Shown here: piece after piece, positions 125 through 38,789 of the stretch
How positions within the stretch are numbered: position 1 is the stretch's first letter
How the letters are laid out: each line of letters opens with the position of its first letter
NCBI RefSeq assembly: GCF_003286915.1
Contig: NZ_QMFY01000018.1
Span: forward strand, 1-64,000
Reading direction: 5' to 3'
Source of the DNA: Pseudochryseolinea flava
GTDB taxonomy: Bacteria; Bacteroidota; Bacteroidia; Cytophagales; Cyclobacteriaceae
DNA length: 64,000 nucleotides
Made by a program: the position numbers and the translations under genes
Notes under the pieces: model-generated
Seen by the model: the letters and a program-made list of their open reading frames with translations, nothing else
Databases searched by the model: none
What the model was told of the DNA's origin: nothing

Positions 125-210
125 TTATCTGTTATCGGTAATGCACTTCTTTCAGACTTTTGGTCTTTATGTGTGAGTGCGATAGCAGAGGCAACCTATG
201 AGTGTTGTCG

Positions 211-877
211 GTTATCTGTTATCCGTGAACTGCGAACTGTGAACCGTTATGTGTGAGCGATAGTAGCGGCACCCCGCAGCAGCGTTGGGTTGTGTGTTGG
301 GGCGAGGAGTACAGCGGATAGCGCGACCCGAACTTGAGAGGGGCACACCCAGGTGAATGAAAGTTTAAAGTTTTAAAGTTTAAAGTTTTAAAGTGAACCT
401 GTGAACTGTGAGCTGCGAACTGTTATGTGAGCGATAGTAGCGGCACCCCGCAGCAGGGTTGGGTTGTGTGTTGGGGCGAGGAGTACAGCGGATAGCGCGA
501 CCCGAACTTGAGAGGGGCACACCCGGTGAGTAAAAAGTTGAAAGTTTAAAGTTTAAAGTTTTAAAGTGAACCTGTGAACTGTGAGCTGCGAACTGTGAAC
601 TGTTATGTGAGCGATAGTAGCGGCACCCCGCAGCAGGGTTAGGTTGTGTGTTGGGACGAGGAGTACGGCGGATAGCGCGACCCGAACGTGAGAGGGGCAC
701 ACCCGGTGAGTAAAAAGTTGAAAGTTTAAAGTTTTAAGTGAACTGTGAACTGCGAACTGTGAGCTGTGAACTGTTATGTGTGAGCGATAGTAGCGGCACC
801 CCGCAGCAGCGTTGGGTTGTGTGTTGGGGCGAGGAGTACAGCGGATAGCGCGACCCGAACTTGAGAGGGGCACACCC
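211..877. repeat. Four ~100-bp direct repeats separated by heptamer arrays
   Basis: A ~100-bp core, starting gtgagcgatagtagcggcac and ending gaggggcacaccc, occurs at about 251-350, 425-524, 605-704 and 777-877. Copies differ by only a few substitutions. The start-to-start spacing is about 172-180 bp. The spacers are themselves 7-bp periodic: AAAGTTT-type words followed by GTGAACT/GCGAACT-type words (211-252, 358-425, 530-605, 711-777). A weaker fifth trace is at 172-187. Open frames across the region translate the repeat and look non-coding. The segment lies between the IS end and the dcw cluster. Function unknown. Confidence 0.85.
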
Positions 878-1605: not shown

Positions 1606-1633
1606 CTCAAGCTACAAGCTGCAAGTTTCAAGC
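1606..1633. repeat. Heptamer array, left flank of the S23-type gene
   Basis: Four heptamers in phase (CTCAAGC, TACAAGC, TGCAAGT, TTCAAGC) start 14 bp after the mraZ stop codon. Their complements reappear at 2078-2105 on the other side of the S23-type gene, so the gene sits between imperfect inverted repeats. Confidence 0.75.
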
Positions 1634-1687
1634 TGTTTACAAAACCGTTGTGTTTTTAAGAGAAGCGCTTTTGCTTCGTCCTGTTGT

Positions 1688-2077: not shown

Positions 2078-2105
2078 GCTTGCAGCTTGAGGCTTGAAAC
2101 TTGAA
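2078..2105. repeat. Heptamer array, right flank of the S23-type gene
   Basis: Four in-phase heptamers (GCTTGCA, GCTTGAG, GCTTGAA, ACTTGAA) end six bases before the rsmH start codon. They are near-complements of the words at 1606-1633 (GCTTGAG is the exact complement of CTCAAGC). Because the array takes up the ribosome-binding position of rsmH, it may affect rsmH translation. Confidence 0.75.
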
Positions 2106-2111
2106 GCCGAA

Positions 2112-3065
2112 ATGCCAAAAGAAAAAGAAGATAAGGTTGAGGCCAGTGGATATCATAAACCTGTCATGCTCCAAGAGTGCATCGCTGGTTTGCAAATCGA
2201 GCCAACAAAAGTTTACGTCGACGTAACATTCGGCGGCGGGGGACATAGTAAAGAGATCTTAAAACATCTCGAGGAAGGAAAAGGAAGATTGATTGCTTTC
2301 GATCAGGATGATGATGCTAGAAAGCAAAGTGAAAAAATAGGAAGTCGTTCTTTAACATTTTGTCAGGCCAATTTCATGTACATGAAAAAGTATTTGAAGT
2401 TGAATGGCGTAACGAAAGTCGATGGGATATTGGCAGATCTGGGGATATCGTCGCACCAGATTGATTCTCCCGAAAGAGGATTTTCGACACGTTATGATGG
2501 GCCGCTCGATATGCGCATGGATCAGCAAGCTCCGAAAACAGCGGCTGATATCTTGAATACATACACAGAAGAAAATCTCCACAAGATCTTCGGAATGTAT
2601 GGTGAACTAAAAAATGCGCGGACAGCTGCGGGACTTATCGTAAAGACGCGCGTGAATAAACCCTTTGCGCGTACAGAGGATTTGAAATTGGCACTGCAAT
2701 CCATTGCTCCACGGGGCAAGGAAAATAAATACTTCGCACAGGTGTTTCAAGCTTTGCGCATTGAAGTGAATGCTGAGATGACCGCACTTGAAAATTTTTT
2801 GCACCAGTGTGCTGAAGTAATGGAAGAAGGCGGAAGGCTCGTGATTATGTCCTATCACTCGCTGGAAGATCGGATGGTGAAGAACTTTATCAGAACTGGT
2901 AAAGTCTTCGGTGAAGTAGAGAAGGACTTTTATGGAAATGAGATCAAACCTTTTGAGGCGGTTACGCGCAAGCCGATTGAAGCTTCAGAAGAAGAGGTCG
3001 AACAAAACAACAGAGCGCGAAGCGCAAAACTTCGCGTTGCTGAAAGAGTAAAAGAGAAAAAATAA
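2112..3065 (+). CDS. rsmH: 16S rRNA (cytosine-1402 N4)-methyltransferase RsmH
   Basis: RsmH transfers a methyl group from S-adenosylmethionine to N4 of C1402 in the ribosomal P site. The 317-aa product has the SAM-binding D-V-T-F-G-G-G-G-H-S motif near residue 35, the DGILADLGISSHQ and ERGFS blocks, PLDMRMD, the R-I-E-V-N-x-E segment and the late V-I-M-S-Y-H-S-L-E-D-R motif. The ATG at 2112 is preferred over an in-frame TTG at 2094, because the upstream codons are part of a heptamer array. It is the first canonical dcw gene after mraZ, with ftsL 48 bp downstream. Confidence 0.95.
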   Translation: MPKEKEDKVEASGYHKPVMLQECIAGLQIEPTKVYVDVTFGGGGHSKEILKHLEEGKGRLIAFDQDDDARKQSEKIGSRSLTFCQANFMYMKKYLKLNGVTKVDGILADLGISSHQIDSPERGFSTRYDGPLDMRMDQQAPKTAADILNTYTEENLHKIFGMYGELKNARTAAGLIVKTRVNKPFARTEDLKLALQSIAPRGKENKYFAQVFQALRIEVNAEMTALENFLHQCAEVMEEGGRLVIMSYHSLEDRMVKNFIRTGKVFGEVEKDFYGNEIKPFEAVTRKPIEASEEEVEQNNRARSAKLRVAERVKEKK

Positions 3066-3066
3066 A

Positions 3067-3108
3067 CGTAAAGCTAAAACGCGGAGCGCGAAGCTCACAG
3101 CTCGAAGC
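3067..3108. repeat. Heptamer array between rsmH and ftsL
   Basis: Six in-phase 7-mers (CGTAAAG, CTAAAAC, GCGGAGC, GCGAAGC, TCACAGC, TCGAAGC) fill almost the whole gap between the rsmH stop and the ftsL start. The word drifts along the array while the 7-bp phase is held. Confidence 0.7.
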
Positions 3109-14233: not shown

Positions 14234-14303
14234 GTTCACGGATAACAGTTCACGGTTTACAGCAATGCATTAACCGTCAACTGTCAACTGTGAACCGTGA
14301 ACA
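14234..14303. repeat. Ten-unit heptamer array between ftsQ and ftsA
   Basis: Ten consecutive 7-mers in phase: GTTCACG, GATAACA, GTTCACG, GTTTACA, GCAATGC, ATTAACC, GTCAACT, GTCAACT, GTGAACC, GTGAACA. The array begins immediately after the ftsQ stop codon. Its first and last units are complementary (GTTCACGG at 14234-14241, CCGTGAAC at 14295-14302), so the transcript could fold into a hairpin between ftsQ and ftsA. Confidence 0.8.
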
Positions 14304-17281: not shown

Positions 17282-17322
17282 ACTCGTAGCACGTAACGCG
17301 TAGCTCGAGGCTTTGAAGGTAT

Positions 17323-17835: not shown

Positions 17836-17867
17836 CTGTGTTGAAACCCATGCCTGATCTCCAACAA

Positions 17868-17922
17868 CCTAATACCTAATACCTAATACCTAATACCTAA
17901 TACCTAATACCTAATACCTAAT
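17868..17922. repeat. Tandem heptamer CCTAATA, about 8 copies
   Basis: Seven perfect copies of CCTAATA plus a partial copy occupy 17868-17922, between the decayed membrane-protein gene and the end of the convergent RES gene. This is the cleanest heptamer array in the window. Perfect short repeats of this kind are prone to slippage, so copy number may vary among cells. Confidence 0.95.
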
Positions 17923-17935
17923 CTCCAATACTCAA

Positions 17936-33498: not shown

Positions 33499-33675
33499 AG
33501 CTGCGAATTACGAGCTACGTGCTGCGAGTTTTACGAGTTTGCTGTTCACGGTTGCGCTAAGTTGCGCCAAGGAAGAGAAAGTTTCGCGAAGAGTTTTTGC
33601 TTTGCGAAACTTTGCATCTTCGAGCAACTCGGCGGTATTGTCTGTTACGCGCTAGACGAAGTTTCGCGAAGCATT
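33499..33675. repeat. Heptamer array and GTTTCGC inverted repeats after argS
   Basis: Six heptamers (AGCTGCG, AATTACG, AGCTACG, TGCTGCG, AGTTTTA, CGAGTTT) cover 33499-33540. Then AAAGTTTCGC (33578-33587) pairs with GCGAAACTTT (33604-33613), and a third copy, GAAGTTTCGCGAAG, follows near 33659. The gap 33493-33701 between convergent genes holds only these repeats. Confidence 0.7.
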
Positions 33676-34913: not shown

Positions 34914-34932
34914 ACGTAAATGTAGAGTTTAA

Positions 34933-34981
34933 AGCAGAAAGCGGAAAGCTTAAAGCAGAAAGCTTACACCGGAAAGCTTGG
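34933..34981. repeat. Seven-unit heptamer array upstream of the acyltransferase gene
   Basis: Seven in-phase words: AGCAGAA, AGCGGAA, AGCTTAA, AGCAGAA, AGCTTAC, ACCGGAA, AGCTTGG. It lies 20 bp from the start codon of the minus-strand acyltransferase gene. The 318-bp gap 34914-35231 has no convincing gene: it contains this array, a second one at 35189-35216 (ACTTGAA, GCTAGCA, GCTTGTG, GCCTGCA), a terminator and a tRNA-like fragment. Confidence 0.8.
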
Positions 34982-35102
34982 ATCGAGGAGAACATCTGTT
35001 TAGATCTTTGAGGTGGTGCCTCAAAGTCTCACCAAGGAATGCAGAAAGTTTCCCCAAGGAAATCCCTGCGATGATCCGTTGTTATCTCGGCAGAAAGTAT
35101 AG

Positions 35103-35139
35103 TAAAAAAGAAAAGGCTACTTCAATAACTGAAGCAGCC
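35103..35139 (-). terminator. Terminator of the yceI transcript
   Basis: On the minus strand GGCTGCTTCA (35139-35130) pairs with TGAAGTAGCC (35124-35115), one G-T pair, five-base loop, followed by TTTTCTTTTTT (35114-35104). It stands about 90 bp beyond the yceI stop codon. Confidence 0.75.
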
Positions 35140-35140
35140 T

Positions 35141-35176
35141 TCGCGAATCGAACCCCTCTAACCGATTACGCTAAAA
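35141..35176 (-). other. tRNA-like fragment
   Basis: The minus strand reads TAGCGTAATCGGTTAGAG and then GGGGTTCGATTCGCG. The first part resembles a tRNA D-arm (TAGCTCAATCGGTTAGAG) and the second a T-arm (GGTTCGATTC). The anticodon arm is missing, so this is not a functional tRNA. It may be a deleted tRNA relic or a chance resemblance. Confidence 0.35.
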
Positions 35177-35231
35177 TTGTATGTAAAGACTTGAAGCTAG
35201 CAGCTTGTGGCCTGCAGCCATTTACAAAAGC

Positions 35232-35774
35232 TTACGCTACGATTTTCGTCAACTCGATATTGAAGTGGAGCTTCACTTCTTCTCCTACTACCATTCCACC
35301 CGCTTCTGTGAGTGCGCTCCAATTCAATCCGAAATCCTTGCGGTTAATCTTACCATTCACCTCAAATCCAGCTTTGATATTTCCCCAAGGATCTTTTGTT
35401 ACACCGCCGAAATCAACATCCAGCGTGATAGGTTTTTTAACATCTCTGATCGTCAACTCGCCGACAAGTTTATAGTCGCCATCAATTTCAAGCACACCGT
35501 TGAAGGTAATATTTGGAAATCTTTCGGCAGCAAAAAAGTCTTCTGACTTCAAGTGACCATCACGATCTGCTTGGTTCGTGTCGATGCTATTGGTCTCGAT
35601 GGTAACGTTAACCTCAGCGCCGTCAAATTTTTCGTCTTCGGCCGTTACATCGCCTTGGAACTTCTTGAAGTAGCCTGTTACTGTAGAGATTACTAAATGT
35701 TTTACTTTAAACTGAGCTTCTGAGTGTGTAGTGTCGATTGCCCATTTTGTTTTTGTTGCTATTGCAGTTGCCAT
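35232..35774 (-). CDS. YceI-family lipid-binding-like protein
   Basis: The 180-aa product is a YceI-type lipocalin-like beta-barrel, a fold that binds polyisoprenoid or other hydrophobic ligands. Motifs are W-x-I-D-T-T-H-S-E-A-x-F-x-V-K-H, the repeated beta-strand pattern and K-I-N-R-K-D-F-G-L-N-W near the end. Most YceI proteins are exported, but no signal peptide is visible here, so it is predicted cytoplasmic, as in a subgroup of Bacteroidota proteins. It has its own terminator. Confidence 0.87.
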   Translation of the reverse strand: MATAIATKTKWAIDTTHSEAQFKVKHLVISTVTGYFKKFQGDVTAEDEKFDGAEVNVTIETNSIDTNQADRDGHLKSEDFFAAERFPNITFNGVLEIDGDYKLVGELTIRDVKKPITLDVDFGGVTKDPWGNIKAGFEVNGKINRKDFGLNWSALTEAGGMVVGEEVKLHFNIELTKIVA

Positions 35775-35898
35775 AATGTTTTGTATTTAGTTCGTGTTTG
35801 ATGATACAAAGCTATGGCAAGACTGCCCCCTGGCGCTTGAACTGGATTAAGATGTATGGGGAATGTTCTTGAACTAGGTTAAGTTCTGGTTCAGTAAT

Positions 35899-36040
35899 CT
35901 GTGAGCTGTTACCGGTTGCCGGTTTCCAGTCGCCAGTTACAGCTATCCCTCAAGACGAAAAAGAATTCTTGCGATTCATCTGTATTTAAGCTTTCCGCTT
36001 TAAGCTTTCTGCTTTCCGCTTTAGGTTTTCTGCTTTCTAC
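35899..36040. repeat. Two heptamer arrays between yceI and the Crp-family gene
   Basis: Seven units at 35899-35947 (CTGTGAG, CTGTTAC, CGGTTGC, CGGTTTC, CAGTCGC, CAGTTAC, AGCTATC) are followed by eight at 35985-36040 (TTTAAGC, TTTCCGC, TTTAAGC, TTTCTGC, TTTCCGC, TTTAGGT, TTTCTGC, TTTCTAC). The second array reaches into the stop codon of the Crp-family gene. The gap 35775-36036 holds nothing else. Confidence 0.8.
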
Positions 36041-36618
36041 TTCTCCATTAGTTTCCTTCTGATCTTGCTTAAGAACTCTGGCGTAATTCCCAAGTACGAG
36101 GCAATGTATTTTAGCGGAACATATTGCTCTAGATTAGAATACTTTTCTGAAAAGTGAAGATAACGTTCTTCAGCCGTAGAAGCGTAACTATGGATGATGC
36201 GCTGCTGCGATACCACCAATGCATTTTGAAAGATGATTCGGAAGTAGCGCTCGAACTTTAAATATTTTTCTAGCACGAGCTCTAACGATACTTTGGGGAG
36301 TAATAAGATTTCGCTTTCAACGAGTGCTCTTGTGGAGTAGATGGAAGGTACCTTTTTCTGCAAGCTGTGTAAGTCGCCAGTCCACCATCCTGTAGTCGCG
36401 AACTGGATCACGTGGTCAGTTCCGTCTTTATCGGTATAGTAGGTCATGAGGCAGCCGGAGTTTACGTAGATCATAAACTTGGTCATCTCACCACTTTCTT
36501 CGATGAGTTCTCCGGGCTTGAGCTTCTTTGGTATCAGTTGCTCCGCGAGGAAATTTGCCTCAGCTTCGTCGAGGGCGACGTGTTTTTTAATGGCGGCGAG
36601 AATTACAGCTGTATTCAT
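36037..36618 (-). CDS. Crp/Fnr-family transcriptional regulator
   Basis: A 193-aa regulator with an N-terminal cyclic-nucleotide-binding-type beta-roll (about 20-120) and a C-terminal winged helix with the segment Y-L-G-I-T-P-E-F-L-S-K-I-R-R-K as recognition helix. The roll lacks the R-x-S/T phosphate-cassette of true cAMP binders, as is common in Bacteroidota members, and there are no Fnr-type N-terminal cysteines. The signal is therefore unknown. ATG at 36618 is preferred over a frame opening at 36705 that overlaps the divergent YkgJ gene. Its 3' end touches a heptamer array. Confidence 0.87.
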   Translation of the reverse strand: MNTAVILAAIKKHVALDEAEANFLAEQLIPKKLKPGELIEESGEMTKFMIYVNSGCLMTYYTDKDGTDHVIQFATTGWWTGDLHSLQKKVPSIYSTRALVESEILLLPKVSLELVLEKYLKFERYFRIIFQNALVVSQQRIIHSYASTAEERYLHFSEKYSNLEQYVPLKYIASYLGITPEFLSKIRRKLMEK

Positions 36619-36670: not shown

Positions 36671-37156
36671 ATGGATCTGGAACGATTTCGGGAAAAGGCA
36701 CACAATCGCTCGGCTGAAAATAAGAAGTTTCTGCTAGGATTAAAGCGTAAAGACCCACGTAAAGTCGATGACGAATTTCATGCTATGCACGAAGAGGTTT
36801 TCGAAGAAATTGATTGCCTCACCTGCGCAAACTGCTGCAAAACCACCAGTCCGATTTTCTACCCGACAGACATCGAACGTGTCGCCAAAGCGCTGCGAAT
36901 GAAACCCGGCGACTTTATTGAGAAATATCTGCGCATTGACGAAGACAAGGACTATGTGCTGAAGTCATCACCGTGCCCGTTCCTCGATGCTGAGAACTAT
37001 TGTATGGTGTACGAGGATCGTCCGAAAGCATGTCGCGAGTATCCGCATACGGATCGGAAAAAGATGGTGCAAATTATGGAACTCACGTATAAAAATACAT
37101 TGGTGTGTCCGGCTGTTTTAGAAATGGTGGAAAGACTTAAGGAGTTAAAAGTTTAA
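36671..37156 (+). CDS. YkgJ-family cysteine-cluster protein
   Basis: A 161-aa cytoplasmic protein with the cysteine cluster C-L-T-C-A-N-C-C near residue 55, then C-P-F-L-D-x-E-N-Y-C and C-R-E-Y-P near residues 100-120, and a last cysteine at V-C-P-A. This is the YkgJ pattern, thought to bind zinc or an Fe-S cluster; its reaction is unknown. It is divergent from the Crp-family regulator with 52 bp between starts. The last codons (E-L-K-V-stop) are already part of a heptamer array that continues to 37255. Confidence 0.85.
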   Translation: MDLERFREKAHNRSAENKKFLLGLKRKDPRKVDDEFHAMHEEVFEEIDCLTCANCCKTTSPIFYPTDIERVAKALRMKPGDFIEKYLRIDEDKDYVLKSSPCPFLDAENYCMVYEDRPKACREYPHTDRKKMVQIMELTYKNTLVCPAVLEMVERLKELKV

Positions 37157-37255
37157 AGTTCAAAGTTGAAAGTTGAAAGTTTAAAGACTTAAATTAACGA
37201 TTAACGAATAACGAATAACGAATAACGAATAACGATTAACGATTAACGATTAACG
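37144..37255. repeat. Sixteen-unit heptamer array with a drifting word
   Basis: Sixteen 7-mers in uninterrupted phase. Five GTTnAAA-type words (GTTTAAA, GTTCAAA, GTTGAAA twice, GTTTAAA) follow an initial AGTTAAA, then GACTTAA acts as a bridge to nine ATTAACG/AATAACG words. It starts inside the last codons of the YkgJ gene and ends 18 bp before the esterase start. The change of word without a change of phase is the clearest case in the window. Confidence 0.95.
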
Positions 37256-37273
37256 ACTACAAATTCACAATAG

Positions 37274-38680
37274 ATGAGAAAAACAGTTCTCTTAATCACA
37301 TTGCTGGTGGCCACAACCACCCTCCATGCCCAGCTTCGGCTAGCGTCGCTCTTCACCGATCACATGGTGATTCAACAACAATCTCCTGTGCCGATTTGGG
37401 GTTGGTCGTATCCATCACAAGAAGTTGTAATCAAAGTAAGTTGGGATACGACGACTTATCGTGTAAAGTCATTGAACACAACCGAATGGAGAACCTTTAT
37501 CTTTAGTCCCGCCGCTGGTGGACCTCACACCATCACCATCAAAGCAGGATGGGAGGAACGTGTGCTGAAAGATGTGATGTCTGGTGAAGTTTGGTTGTGC
37601 TCCGGACAATCGAATATGGAATGGGGAATGCACATGTCTGCGGATGGGAAAGAAGTTACAGAACAAGTCAATGACCCGAACATTAGACTTTTTCAAGTGT
37701 CAAGATTTGCAGCTGATGCTCCTCAATTGCGAGGTGAAGGTGAATGGAAAGTGTGCGATAAGGAAGCTGTTCGTTATTTCAGTGCAGTGGGATATTTTTT
37801 TGCAAAACGACTGAACGGTCAATTGAATGTGCCTGTAGGAATTATCAGTTGTGCTTGGGGTGGAACACCTGCTGAAGCCTGGATACCAAAATCGATTGTT
37901 TACGGCAACCCAACGCTACGGGATGCTGCGGCAAAACTCACAGATGATAAACCATGGTGTCCAACGAAACCTGAAGTTGTTTATAACGGGATGCTTCGTC
38001 CATTAATTCCGTACAGGGTTGCCGGTGTATTATGGTATCAAGGAGAAGCGAATGTTGGATCGACAGCCTATAAGCCTTTAATGGAAGAGCTGATCAAAGA
38101 TTGGCGCCGTGAATTCCTTTACGATTTTCCTTTCTACTATGTACAAATCGCACCGTTTGCAGGGTATGGAGAATTTCCTTCCGGTGCATTGCTACGCGAA
38201 CAGCAAACAAAGATGCTAGAAATCCCAAATACAGGAATGGTCGTCGTGACAGACGTTGTTGATGACGTGAAGGACATTCACCCGAAGTATAAAAAGCCTG
38301 TAGGAGAACGTTTGGCAAATCTTGCTCTGGGGGATCGTTATGGTAAGGAAGGCATTGCGTATCGCAATCCTATCTTCAAGCAAATGAATGTTGAGAAAGG
38401 TAAAGTGAGAATTTCATTTGACTATGTGCTCACCGGCCTTGTTTCAAAAGGTGGAGAGCCTAACGAATTTATGATTGCTGGTGCTGATAAAAAATTCTAT
38501 CCAGCGAAGGCAAAGATCGAAGGAAAGACTGTTGTGGTCTCCGCGAAAGAAGTGAAAGATCCTGTAGCTGTACGTTTTGCGTTTAAGAACGGATCATTGC
38601 CGAACCTCTTTAGTACAGAGGGATTACCGGTGAATGGATTTAGAACGGATAGTTGGGGGGAAGAAGAAGTAAAGAAGTAA
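37274..38680 (+). CDS. Sialate O-acetylesterase-like SGNH hydrolase
   Basis: A 468-aa exported esterase with a signal peptide ending T-L-H-A. The catalytic serine lies in C-S-G-Q-S-N-M-E-W (Ser113). The L-W-Y-Q-G-E-A-N block and the late D-x-x-D-x-H-P segment complete the SGNH site. The opening L-F-T-D-H-M-V-I-Q-Q motif is typical of sialate 9-O-acetylesterases, which deacetylate sialic acids or, in many Bacteroidota, acetylated xylan or other glycans. No glycan-utilisation locus surrounds it. The stop codon overlaps a heptamer array. Confidence 0.88.
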   Translation: MRKTVLLITLLVATTTLHAQLRLASLFTDHMVIQQQSPVPIWGWSYPSQEVVIKVSWDTTTYRVKSLNTTEWRTFIFSPAAGGPHTITIKAGWEERVLKDVMSGEVWLCSGQSNMEWGMHMSADGKEVTEQVNDPNIRLFQVSRFAADAPQLRGEGEWKVCDKEAVRYFSAVGYFFAKRLNGQLNVPVGIISCAWGGTPAEAWIPKSIVYGNPTLRDAAAKLTDDKPWCPTKPEVVYNGMLRPLIPYRVAGVLWYQGEANVGSTAYKPLMEELIKDWRREFLYDFPFYYVQIAPFAGYGEFPSGALLREQQTKMLEIPNTGMVVVTDVVDDVKDIHPKYKKPVGERLANLALGDRYGKEGIAYRNPIFKQMNVEKGKVRISFDYVLTGLVSKGGEPNEFMIAGADKKFYPAKAKIEGKTVVVSAKEVKDPVAVRFAFKNGSLPNLFSTEGLPVNGFRTDSWGEEEVKK

Positions 38681-38755
38681 GGAGTAAGAAGTAAGTGTCT
38701 GTGGAAGAAAACAGCTTCTATTCCTATTAACTGATAACGAATAACTGATAACTAA
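38669..38755. repeat. Heptamer arrays after the esterase gene
   Basis: GTAAAGA, AGTAAGG, AGTAAGA, AGTAAGT (38669-38696) overlap the esterase stop codon. TAACTGA, TAACGAA, TAACTGA, TAACTAA (38728-38755) run directly into the terminator hairpin. Confidence 0.8.
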
Positions 38756-38756
38756 A

Positions 38757-38789
38757 AAAATGCCGGAACTGCTCCGGCATTTTTTTTAG
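38757..38789. terminator. Bidirectional terminator between esterase and trxA genes
   Basis: AATGCCGGA pairs with TCCGGCATT around the loop ACTGC (stem 38759-38781), with an A-run before and eight T after. It serves both convergent genes. Confidence 0.9.

Follow-up and report, generated by a model that had tools for sequence, protein, structure and literature searches.

Heptad and octad arrays of Pseudochryseolinea flava and their association with genes of the 23S rRNA IVP family (PF05635)

Genes and arrays of the window

The window, meaning the whole 64,000-nucleotide stretch of Pseudochryseolinea flava DNA that was analysed, carries many short arrays of seven-base units. Between positions 37143 and 37259 two such arrays lie one after the other, both without a gene of the 23S_rRNA_IVP family (PF05635, hereafter IVP). 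An AGTTNAA array on the plus strand (37143-37186; score 29) overlaps the end of the open reading frame (ORF) at 36671-37156 and uses the word of the resident IVP element L026 (similarity 28 to its arm). The CGTTAAT/CGTTATT array beyond it (37193-37259; score 54) is read on the minus strand and uses the word of another resident element, L027 (similarity 35 to its arm). The original prediction saw at 37144-37255 a single word drifting into another; what lies there is instead a junction of two arrays of opposite polarity, each with the word of a different resident element. This composite is missing from all four congeners in which the locus is syntenic (G001, G004, G005 and G006), and in the other two congeners only distant paralogues of the adjoining gene were found. 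The encoded protein ends in VERLKELKV here and in VERLKKVF or VERLKKIF in the four array-less congeners, which bears out at this site the claim that arrays run into the last codons of the preceding gene. At about 1500-1590 of the locus L002, an array does change in phase on one strand, its units turning from CGTTAAT into AGTTAAA, which are the words of two resident IVP elements.

The IVP gene of the window lies at 1688-2050 on the plus strand and encodes 120 amino acids. It belongs to PF05635, a family of four-helix proteins, by profile match (107.2 bits with a cut-off of 33.8; E 6.2e-31) and resembles the solved structure 2gsc (E 1.1e-17). The single-sequence structure model of the protein was poor (mean pLDDT 66) and its best Foldseek hit, 2gsc at E 0.046, did not reach the cut-off of E ≤0.001; the identity of the protein therefore rests on the sequence matches. 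Upstream is a MraZ gene (1115-1591), and downstream is the ORF at 2094-3065, which we take to be an rsmH/mraW-like gene of the cell-division cluster. Two arrays in inverted orientation enclose the IVP gene. The 5' arm (1608-1634, plus strand, lag-7 score 12) reads inward as AGCTACA, AGCTGCA, AGTTTCA and AGC, and the 3' arm (2078-2106, minus strand) matches it in reverse-complement words and overlaps the start of the next ORF. The predicted fold of the element pairs both arms, and is mildly better than that of shuffled sequences (z -1.86; 3 of 100 shuffles as good). An Rfam scan of the window at gathering thresholds gave no match; given this and its MraZ and rsmH/mraW-like flanks, the element lies outside any 23S rRNA gene.

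Read by eye, the mraZ-rsmH gap holds an IVP gene with arms in G000, G001 and G005. The words differ by genome (AGCTNCA, AGCTTCA-type and GCTGGCT-type) and are alike at both ends within each. A remnant resembling the end of an IVP gene together with a 3' arm fills the gap in G004 and G006, and only two bases, with no IVP, separate the genes in G002 and G003. Within the genus, then, this one site can be filled, partly deleted or empty. The rsmH/mraW-like gene of congeners has its start codon a short way into the 3' arm (L084 1499-1540; L087 and L088 1504-1540; L090 1450-1485), and translation would make an N-terminal extension of the arm.

Most of the other arrays were placed by the array listing and by word match. 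Near the left end, an array with an L030-type word (204-247, minus strand) is followed by three composites. The first joins an AGTTTAA array (L026 word, plus strand) to a CTGTGAA array (L030 word, minus strand) at 360-425, and the L026 word on the plus strand and L030 word on the minus strand recur at 529-605 and 709-781. The region 204-890 contains several tandem copies of a repeat of about 150-180 bases (GTGAGCGATAGTAGCGGCACCCCGCAGCAG...), with heptad arrays of two resident words between the copies. At 966-1007 lies an array of octads, GTGTTGAC/GTGTTGAG, read on the minus strand (lag-8 score 28), whose word is that of the octad IVP element L032 (similarity 26). A near-perfect array at 17867-17929 (score 50) reads ATTAGGT on the minus strand, the word of L031 (similarity 26). 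At 14234-14303 there is a short inverted pair without an IVP, with GTTCACG-type arms and a loop of about 10 bases; its best resident match is L030, with a score of 19.

An AGCNNAA arm at 34931-34981 (plus strand) has its inverted partner at 35985-36042 (minus strand; inverted similarity 27 and 36), and no resident IVP word matches the first of the two arms at 14 or above. This IVP-less pair (34931-36042) encloses a YceI gene at 35232-35774, identified by profile match. An NGTTNCC array (35891-35947, plus strand) also has no resident word at 14 or above. Further on, an AGTAAGA/AGTAAGG array (38672-38695, plus strand) is nearest to the L028 word (similarity 14), and a TAACTGA/TAACGAA array (38728-38758, minus strand) has no resident match at 14 or above; the latter is a split set, with two copies of TAACTGA and one related heptamer between them, and the other arrays of the window use other words. 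The remaining arrays are weak: 3067-3108 has no clear word match and 17283-17310 none at all, 33499-33540 is nearest to the L029 word at a similarity of 13, and 35189-35216 has an L029-type word on the minus strand. The last three score below 11 in the array listing.

Extent of the arrays and association with IVP genes

In all 18 segments listed in the original prediction, lag 7 gave the highest self-identity among lags 4-10, and at most 1 in 1000 same-letter shuffles reached the observed lag-7 score of each; the segments were hand-picked, and this comparison is not a genome-wide test. An unbiased scan with an array cut-off of at least 12 covered 864,000 bases of the P. flava genome, made up of the window and 40 stretches of 20 kb. 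It found 64 arrays at lag 7 and 16 at lag 8, compared with 0, 9, 3, 2, 6, 12 and 3 at the control lags 5, 6, 9, 10, 11, 12 and 13. By proportion, about 480 heptad arrays would be expected in the genome of 6.54 Mb. The first 464 kb contained 36 lag-7 arrays against 1 in a second-order Markov null. The autocorrelation of non-ORF sequence peaks at 7, 14, 21 and 28, and coding sequence has no such peaks. The arrays are thus periodic, present genome-wide beyond chance, and largely intergenic and fixed in phase, as first proposed. The period of seven holds for the listed segments and fails as a universal rule, since octad arrays also exist, including the one at 966-1007 that the first list did not contain.

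The P. flava genome has eight PF05635 genes. Heptad arrays lie on both sides of six of them, the right-hand word being the reverse complement of the left-hand one, with one word per element (AGTTNAA, CGTTAAT, AGTCAGG, AGCTACA, GTTCACG and GGGTATT/AGGACTT). A seventh element, L032, has octads (GTGTTGAN), and the eighth gene, L033, shows no flanking arrays. In L031, the arms alternate two heptads (GGGTATT AGGACTT), which amounts to a 14-base super-repeat.

PF05635 is present in 47 of the 59 genomes searched. Among 97 loci (the eight resident ones and 89 from relatives, picked among the matches listed), scores of at least 9 on both flanks were reached by 55 at lag 7, by 13 at lag 8, and by none at lags 4-6 and 9-13. 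The two ends were similar (at least 16) in inverted orientation at 72 of the 97 loci and in direct orientation at 11, compared with 18 of 477 mismatched pairs. A further 80 named loci, the best 80 among the matches listed, are mostly from Bacteroidota and include records titled Geobacter, Treponema, Fibrobacter, Planctomycetaceae, Omnitrophica and Ignavibacteriales. There, 51 of 80 had scores of at least 9 on both flanks at lag 7, 4 had them at lag 8, and no more than 1 at any other lag, and the ends matched in inverted orientation in 57 and in direct orientation in 18 (mismatched pairs, 30 of 314). When both flanks at 9 or more and an inverted match of at least 16 were required together, heptads alone qualified 6 of 8 resident, 42 of 89 related and 39 of 79 named loci. 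Counting octads, these became 7 of 8, 52 of 89 and 43 of 79, or 95 of 168 outside the P. flava genome; about four in ten IVP loci fail this strict two-sided criterion. Among 671 non-IVP genes of the P. flava genome, with flanks set at simple ORF ends rather than at the domain ends used for the IVP set, 7 had arrays on both flanks and 1 passed the full heptad criterion. That sole control gene, L012 1012-1742, presumably encodes a phosphoribosylglycinamide formyltransferase.

Of 26 IVP-bearing plasmid records, 16 were examined (14 cyanobacterial, Gemmatirosa and Azospirillum), and, taking the better of periods 7 and 8, arrays scoring at least 9 were found on both sides of all 16 IVPs. Three cyanobacterial plasmids (L281, L290 and L291) carry array-flanked IVP elements inside cas operons, twice in the order cas6-IVP-cas4 and once between cas10 and a cmr3-type gene. 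Only the IVP gene was found between the arms of the elements inspected, and the elements have terminal inverted repeats, as MITEs and insertion sequences do. By this association, the arrays almost certainly represent the paired inverted arms of IVP elements, together with IVP-less derivatives of them. The reading of the arrays shifts from a drifting microsatellite to the arms of IVP elements, which appear to be a widespread but little-studied type of small bacterial gene element.

Five cores, sense placement and shared words

The arms have a regular internal architecture. A search of 176 loci for a dinucleotide repeating at a fixed period in both arms found at least four cores in each arm at period 7 in 111 loci and at period 8 in 20, and at periods 5, 6, 9 and 10 in none of the 176. 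On the strand that reads inward, AG is the core most often found. Cores were counted in 143 elements with at least three per arm and at least eight in all. Five is the commonest number in heptad arms (115 of 242; four in 42, six in 36) and in octad arms (23 of 44; four in 6, six in 3), and 37 elements have five in both arms. A falling distribution is disfavoured because five would not then exceed four (binomial p 2e-9 for heptads, 0.001 for octads). The detected span peaks at 30-31 nucleotides for heptads and at 34 for octads, that is, at four periods plus the core; at equal count the octad arms are longer, which indicates that count and not length is kept, and a fixed arm length was rejected on the same ground. 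The solved relatives 2gsc and 2rld contain five chains each. That five is a selected number is strongly supported, and we regard it as very probable.

The original prediction had offered slippage plus mutation, or an active copying process, as the source of the arrays. Heptamers are described as the commonest class of long repeats in many genomes, for which slippage has been suggested (Mrazek 2007, as described in PMC4679880), and some arrays here are long and near-perfect (L015, at least 17 units); slippage has probably lengthened some of the latter. A slippage microsatellite should fall steadily in copy number with no preferred number, and a mode at exactly five was observed. Slippage does not predict inverted pairing around one gene family, encountered once in the 671 controls, and as the sole source it leaves unexplained both the mode at five and the way in which period and word follow the protein clade. 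Plain polymerase slippage at heptamers with point mutation is for these reasons a most improbable account of the whole. Copying as the whole explanation is not supported either; the order of units is not carried from one arm to the other.

The elements have a preferred orientation. Of 129 elements with at least four cores per arm, 117 have a neighbouring gene no more than 400 bases away on either side. In 108 of these the two neighbours share the direction of the IVP gene and in 3 they oppose it, while 282 of 560 ordinary genes of the P. flava genome are co-directional with both neighbours; several of the loci are orthologous, which puts the effective number below 117. Annotated plasmid IVPs behave similarly (10 of 14 in sense on both sides, 3 antisense and 1 with mixed neighbours). 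According to the ORFs as called, an arm overlaps the upstream ORF in 30 of the 117 and the downstream ORF in 29.

Such placement would suit arms that are kept solely as a stem for RNA pairing and RNase III cutting, their repeats having no protein reader and the IVP doing something else. The 23S element of Coxiella, with inverted ends cut by RNase III and heptamers upstream of its ORF, is a reported precedent (PMC4990558), and the sense bias and the inverted similarity of 72 of 97 loci agree with it. However, a stem requires neither a fixed period of 7 or 8 nor five units, and the two arms do not mirror each other at the level of single units: spacers of the 37 five-and-five elements are 0.658 identical between arms when compared in order and 0.645 when compared off order (permutation fraction 0.18). 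Together with the modest fold score of the window element, this weakens a pure stem and makes it rather unlikely. It also led to the rejection of unit-by-unit copying and of strict hairpin matching between arms, and implies that the arms share a vocabulary and not a sequence.

The same inverted arms could be the ends of a DNA element, that is, terminal inverted repeats to which the IVP, or some host factor, would bind for transposition, the IVP-less pairs being MITE-like. Symmetric inverted ends, empty sites, short IVP-less inverted pairs and solo arrays with resident words all speak for this, as does the scatter of related proteins: of 246 pairs of IVPs that are 60-70 percent identical, 79 have a homologous flanking gene in common and for 167 none was found. 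Symmetric ends would not be expected to yield 108 sense and 3 antisense placements without later selection, and we consider this explanation unlikely. The empty sites and differing contexts nevertheless support the view that the IVP unit probably is, or was, mobile.

Period and word follow the protein. A tree of the IVPs of 81 clear elements implies 8 changes of period; over 300 sets of shuffled labels the mean is 16.5 and the lowest value 10. The clades by arm type include one with AGNNNNN heptads and one with GTGTTTAN octads, and GTGTTTA/GTGTTGA octads belong to a single clade spanning six genus codes. Protein identity and word similarity are weakly correlated (Mantel r 0.125 with the frame of L027 uncorrected; null standard deviation 0.040, null maximum 0.133 of 2000), and the mean word cosine grows with identity, being about 0.12 for proteins 25-35 percent identical and 0.51 for those above 60 percent. 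These results show joint transmission of arms and gene and a lasting constraint on the arms. They are no proof of recognition, and word and period may track the protein through joint inheritance of arms and gene alone. If the arrays were instead sites for host RNA-binding proteins such as S1, Csp or Csr, as MacGregor proposed for TAACTGA repeats just upstream of start codons (PMC4679880), IVP elements would be mere passengers. Words that differ within one genome and track the IVP clade, five sites and inverted arms all argue against it, and we hold it to be very unlikely.

Most arrays of the P. flava sample stand apart from any IVP gene. Of its 78 heptad or octad arrays, 72 are solo, lying more than 300 bases from an IVP, and 57 of these resemble (at least 14) an arm of one of the seven resident elements; seven foreign elements drawn at random gave 19.3 such matches on average and at most 40 over 300 draws. 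The other 15 have no resident word at 14 or above. The core run of solo arrays also peaks at five (26 of 72). Short inverted pairs without an IVP occur at 14234-14303 of the window, at L024 14143-14295 and 15555-15658, at L074 8085-8248 and at L080 17234-17444. In other genomes the picture varies: at lag 7 the number of arrays per 200 kb is just 3 in G033, which has eight IVPs, and 11 in G056, which has five; one of the 11 is a run of N, and other lags are equally frequent in G056. IVPs are thus not always accompanied by many solo arrays. The IVP-free genomes G018 and G050 have 1 and 2 per 200 kb. At L251 19628-19775, in G050, where PF05635 gave no match, there is a close inverted heptad pair (AGGTATG / CCCCATA) that may be a relic. 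The exact word TTAACGATTAACGATTAACG was discarded as too word-specific a marker for comparing relatives (114 places in the P. flava genome and 0 in 38 relatives), and AGYTNNN was used instead. The latter was counted in 30 of 47 IVP-bearing and 2 of 12 IVP-free genomes (Fisher p 0.007), a tally that includes G026 and G055, whose counts are uninformative since AGYTNNN matches there are no more frequent than those of the reversed control pattern.

A proposed model and comparison with known systems

A model of the element can be proposed from these data. An intact element would consist of a 5' arm, the IVP gene and a 3' arm, inserted in sense between co-directional genes. Each arm would be a series of short sites at a spacing of 7 or 8 bases, mostly five in number, with a fixed core (mostly AG on the inward strand) and looser spacers. 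A ring of five IVP subunits would then bind one arm, one site per subunit, in a manner similar to TRAP. Such binding would keep the count, the spacing and the core while the letters of the spacers drift. We see the binding of five sites by a pentamer as having about equal prospects of being right or wrong. The ring protein TRAP binds evenly spaced RNA triplets; the likeness would lie in one repeat per ring subunit and is an analogy only, the fold and the repeat being unrelated.

The near-constant sense placement suggests that the main action of the element is on RNA, as for the 23S element. Once transcribed, the arms might pair or be bound by IVP, and the insert would be processed or tolerated inside a polycistronic message. 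For action on RNA rather than on DNA, we find the balance to be even. The arms may also serve the spread of the element, a means of spread that we infer. Taken from end to end, up to and including pentamer binding, the model has in our judgement an even chance of holding. A still wider generalization can be put forward tentatively, and we think it somewhat likelier to fail than to hold: IVPs would be programmable five-subunit rings, each reading a clade-specific word of 7 or 8 bases at five sites per arm, the arm words would form a genome lexicon shared in trans with hundreds of IVP-less arrays, and the heptamer excess of Bacteroidota, cyanobacteria, Xanthomonas and Beggiatoaceae would largely be the footprint of one element class.

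The association ties together three strands, namely the excess of heptamer repeats in bacteria, a very common family without an assigned function (PF05635), and isolated descriptions of heptamers from Coxiella, Beggiatoaceae, Xanthomonas and Nostoc. It also makes the function of IVPs directly testable, the genome itself giving the predicted ligand, its number of units, its spacing and its clade-specific word. A pentamer that does read five words would amount to a small ring protein whose nucleic-acid code can change, for which nature offers many word-protein pairs. A full-text search, conducted outside most subscription journals, found no published link between PF05635 genes in general and flanking heptad arrays, which does not prove its absence.

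Related repeats have been reported piecemeal. TAACTGA direct repeats are described in Beggiatoaceae, cyanobacteria and five Bacteroidetes (PMC4679880). Like the arrays here, they are intergenic and sometimes split by related 7-mers, and TAACTGA itself is found in the window at 38728-38758. Unlike the present analysis, that study treats one word and finds related words rare, and the text searched does not mention the IVP family (PMC4679880). The GGGAATC repeats of Xanthomonas and the GGGGA(T/C)T repeats of Nostoc are likewise intergenic heptamer arrays, and two sites converge on opposite strands close together in 70 and 75 cases (PMC4692102). In these features they resemble the arrays described here; they were explained as G-quadruplex formers, and 23S is not mentioned in the text searched (PMC4692102). 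The solved IVP 2gsc comes from Xanthomonas campestris. As for the protein, the Avd of diversity-generating retroelements is reported to be homologous to PF05635, and shares with IVPs that reported homology (4DWL, 2GSC; PMC10053308). A survey of cas genes lists IVP genes within cas loci as a cas-associated function, which the array-flanked elements of cas operons may explain (PMC3936711).

The closest known system is the intervening element (IVS) of the Coxiella burnetii 23S rRNA gene, whose inverted ends are reported to form a stem cut by RNase III, and in which three tandem GACAGAT heptamers, variable in copy number among strains, precede the S23 ORF (PMC4990558). These published heptamers are taken as independent support for the association. 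Both systems share a protein family, inverted ends around the ORF, and heptamers. In contrast to the Coxiella element as reported, those described here lie between protein genes, carry heptad or octad arms at both ends, each with its own word and five cores, and have left plentiful IVP-less derivatives in the genome of P. flava.
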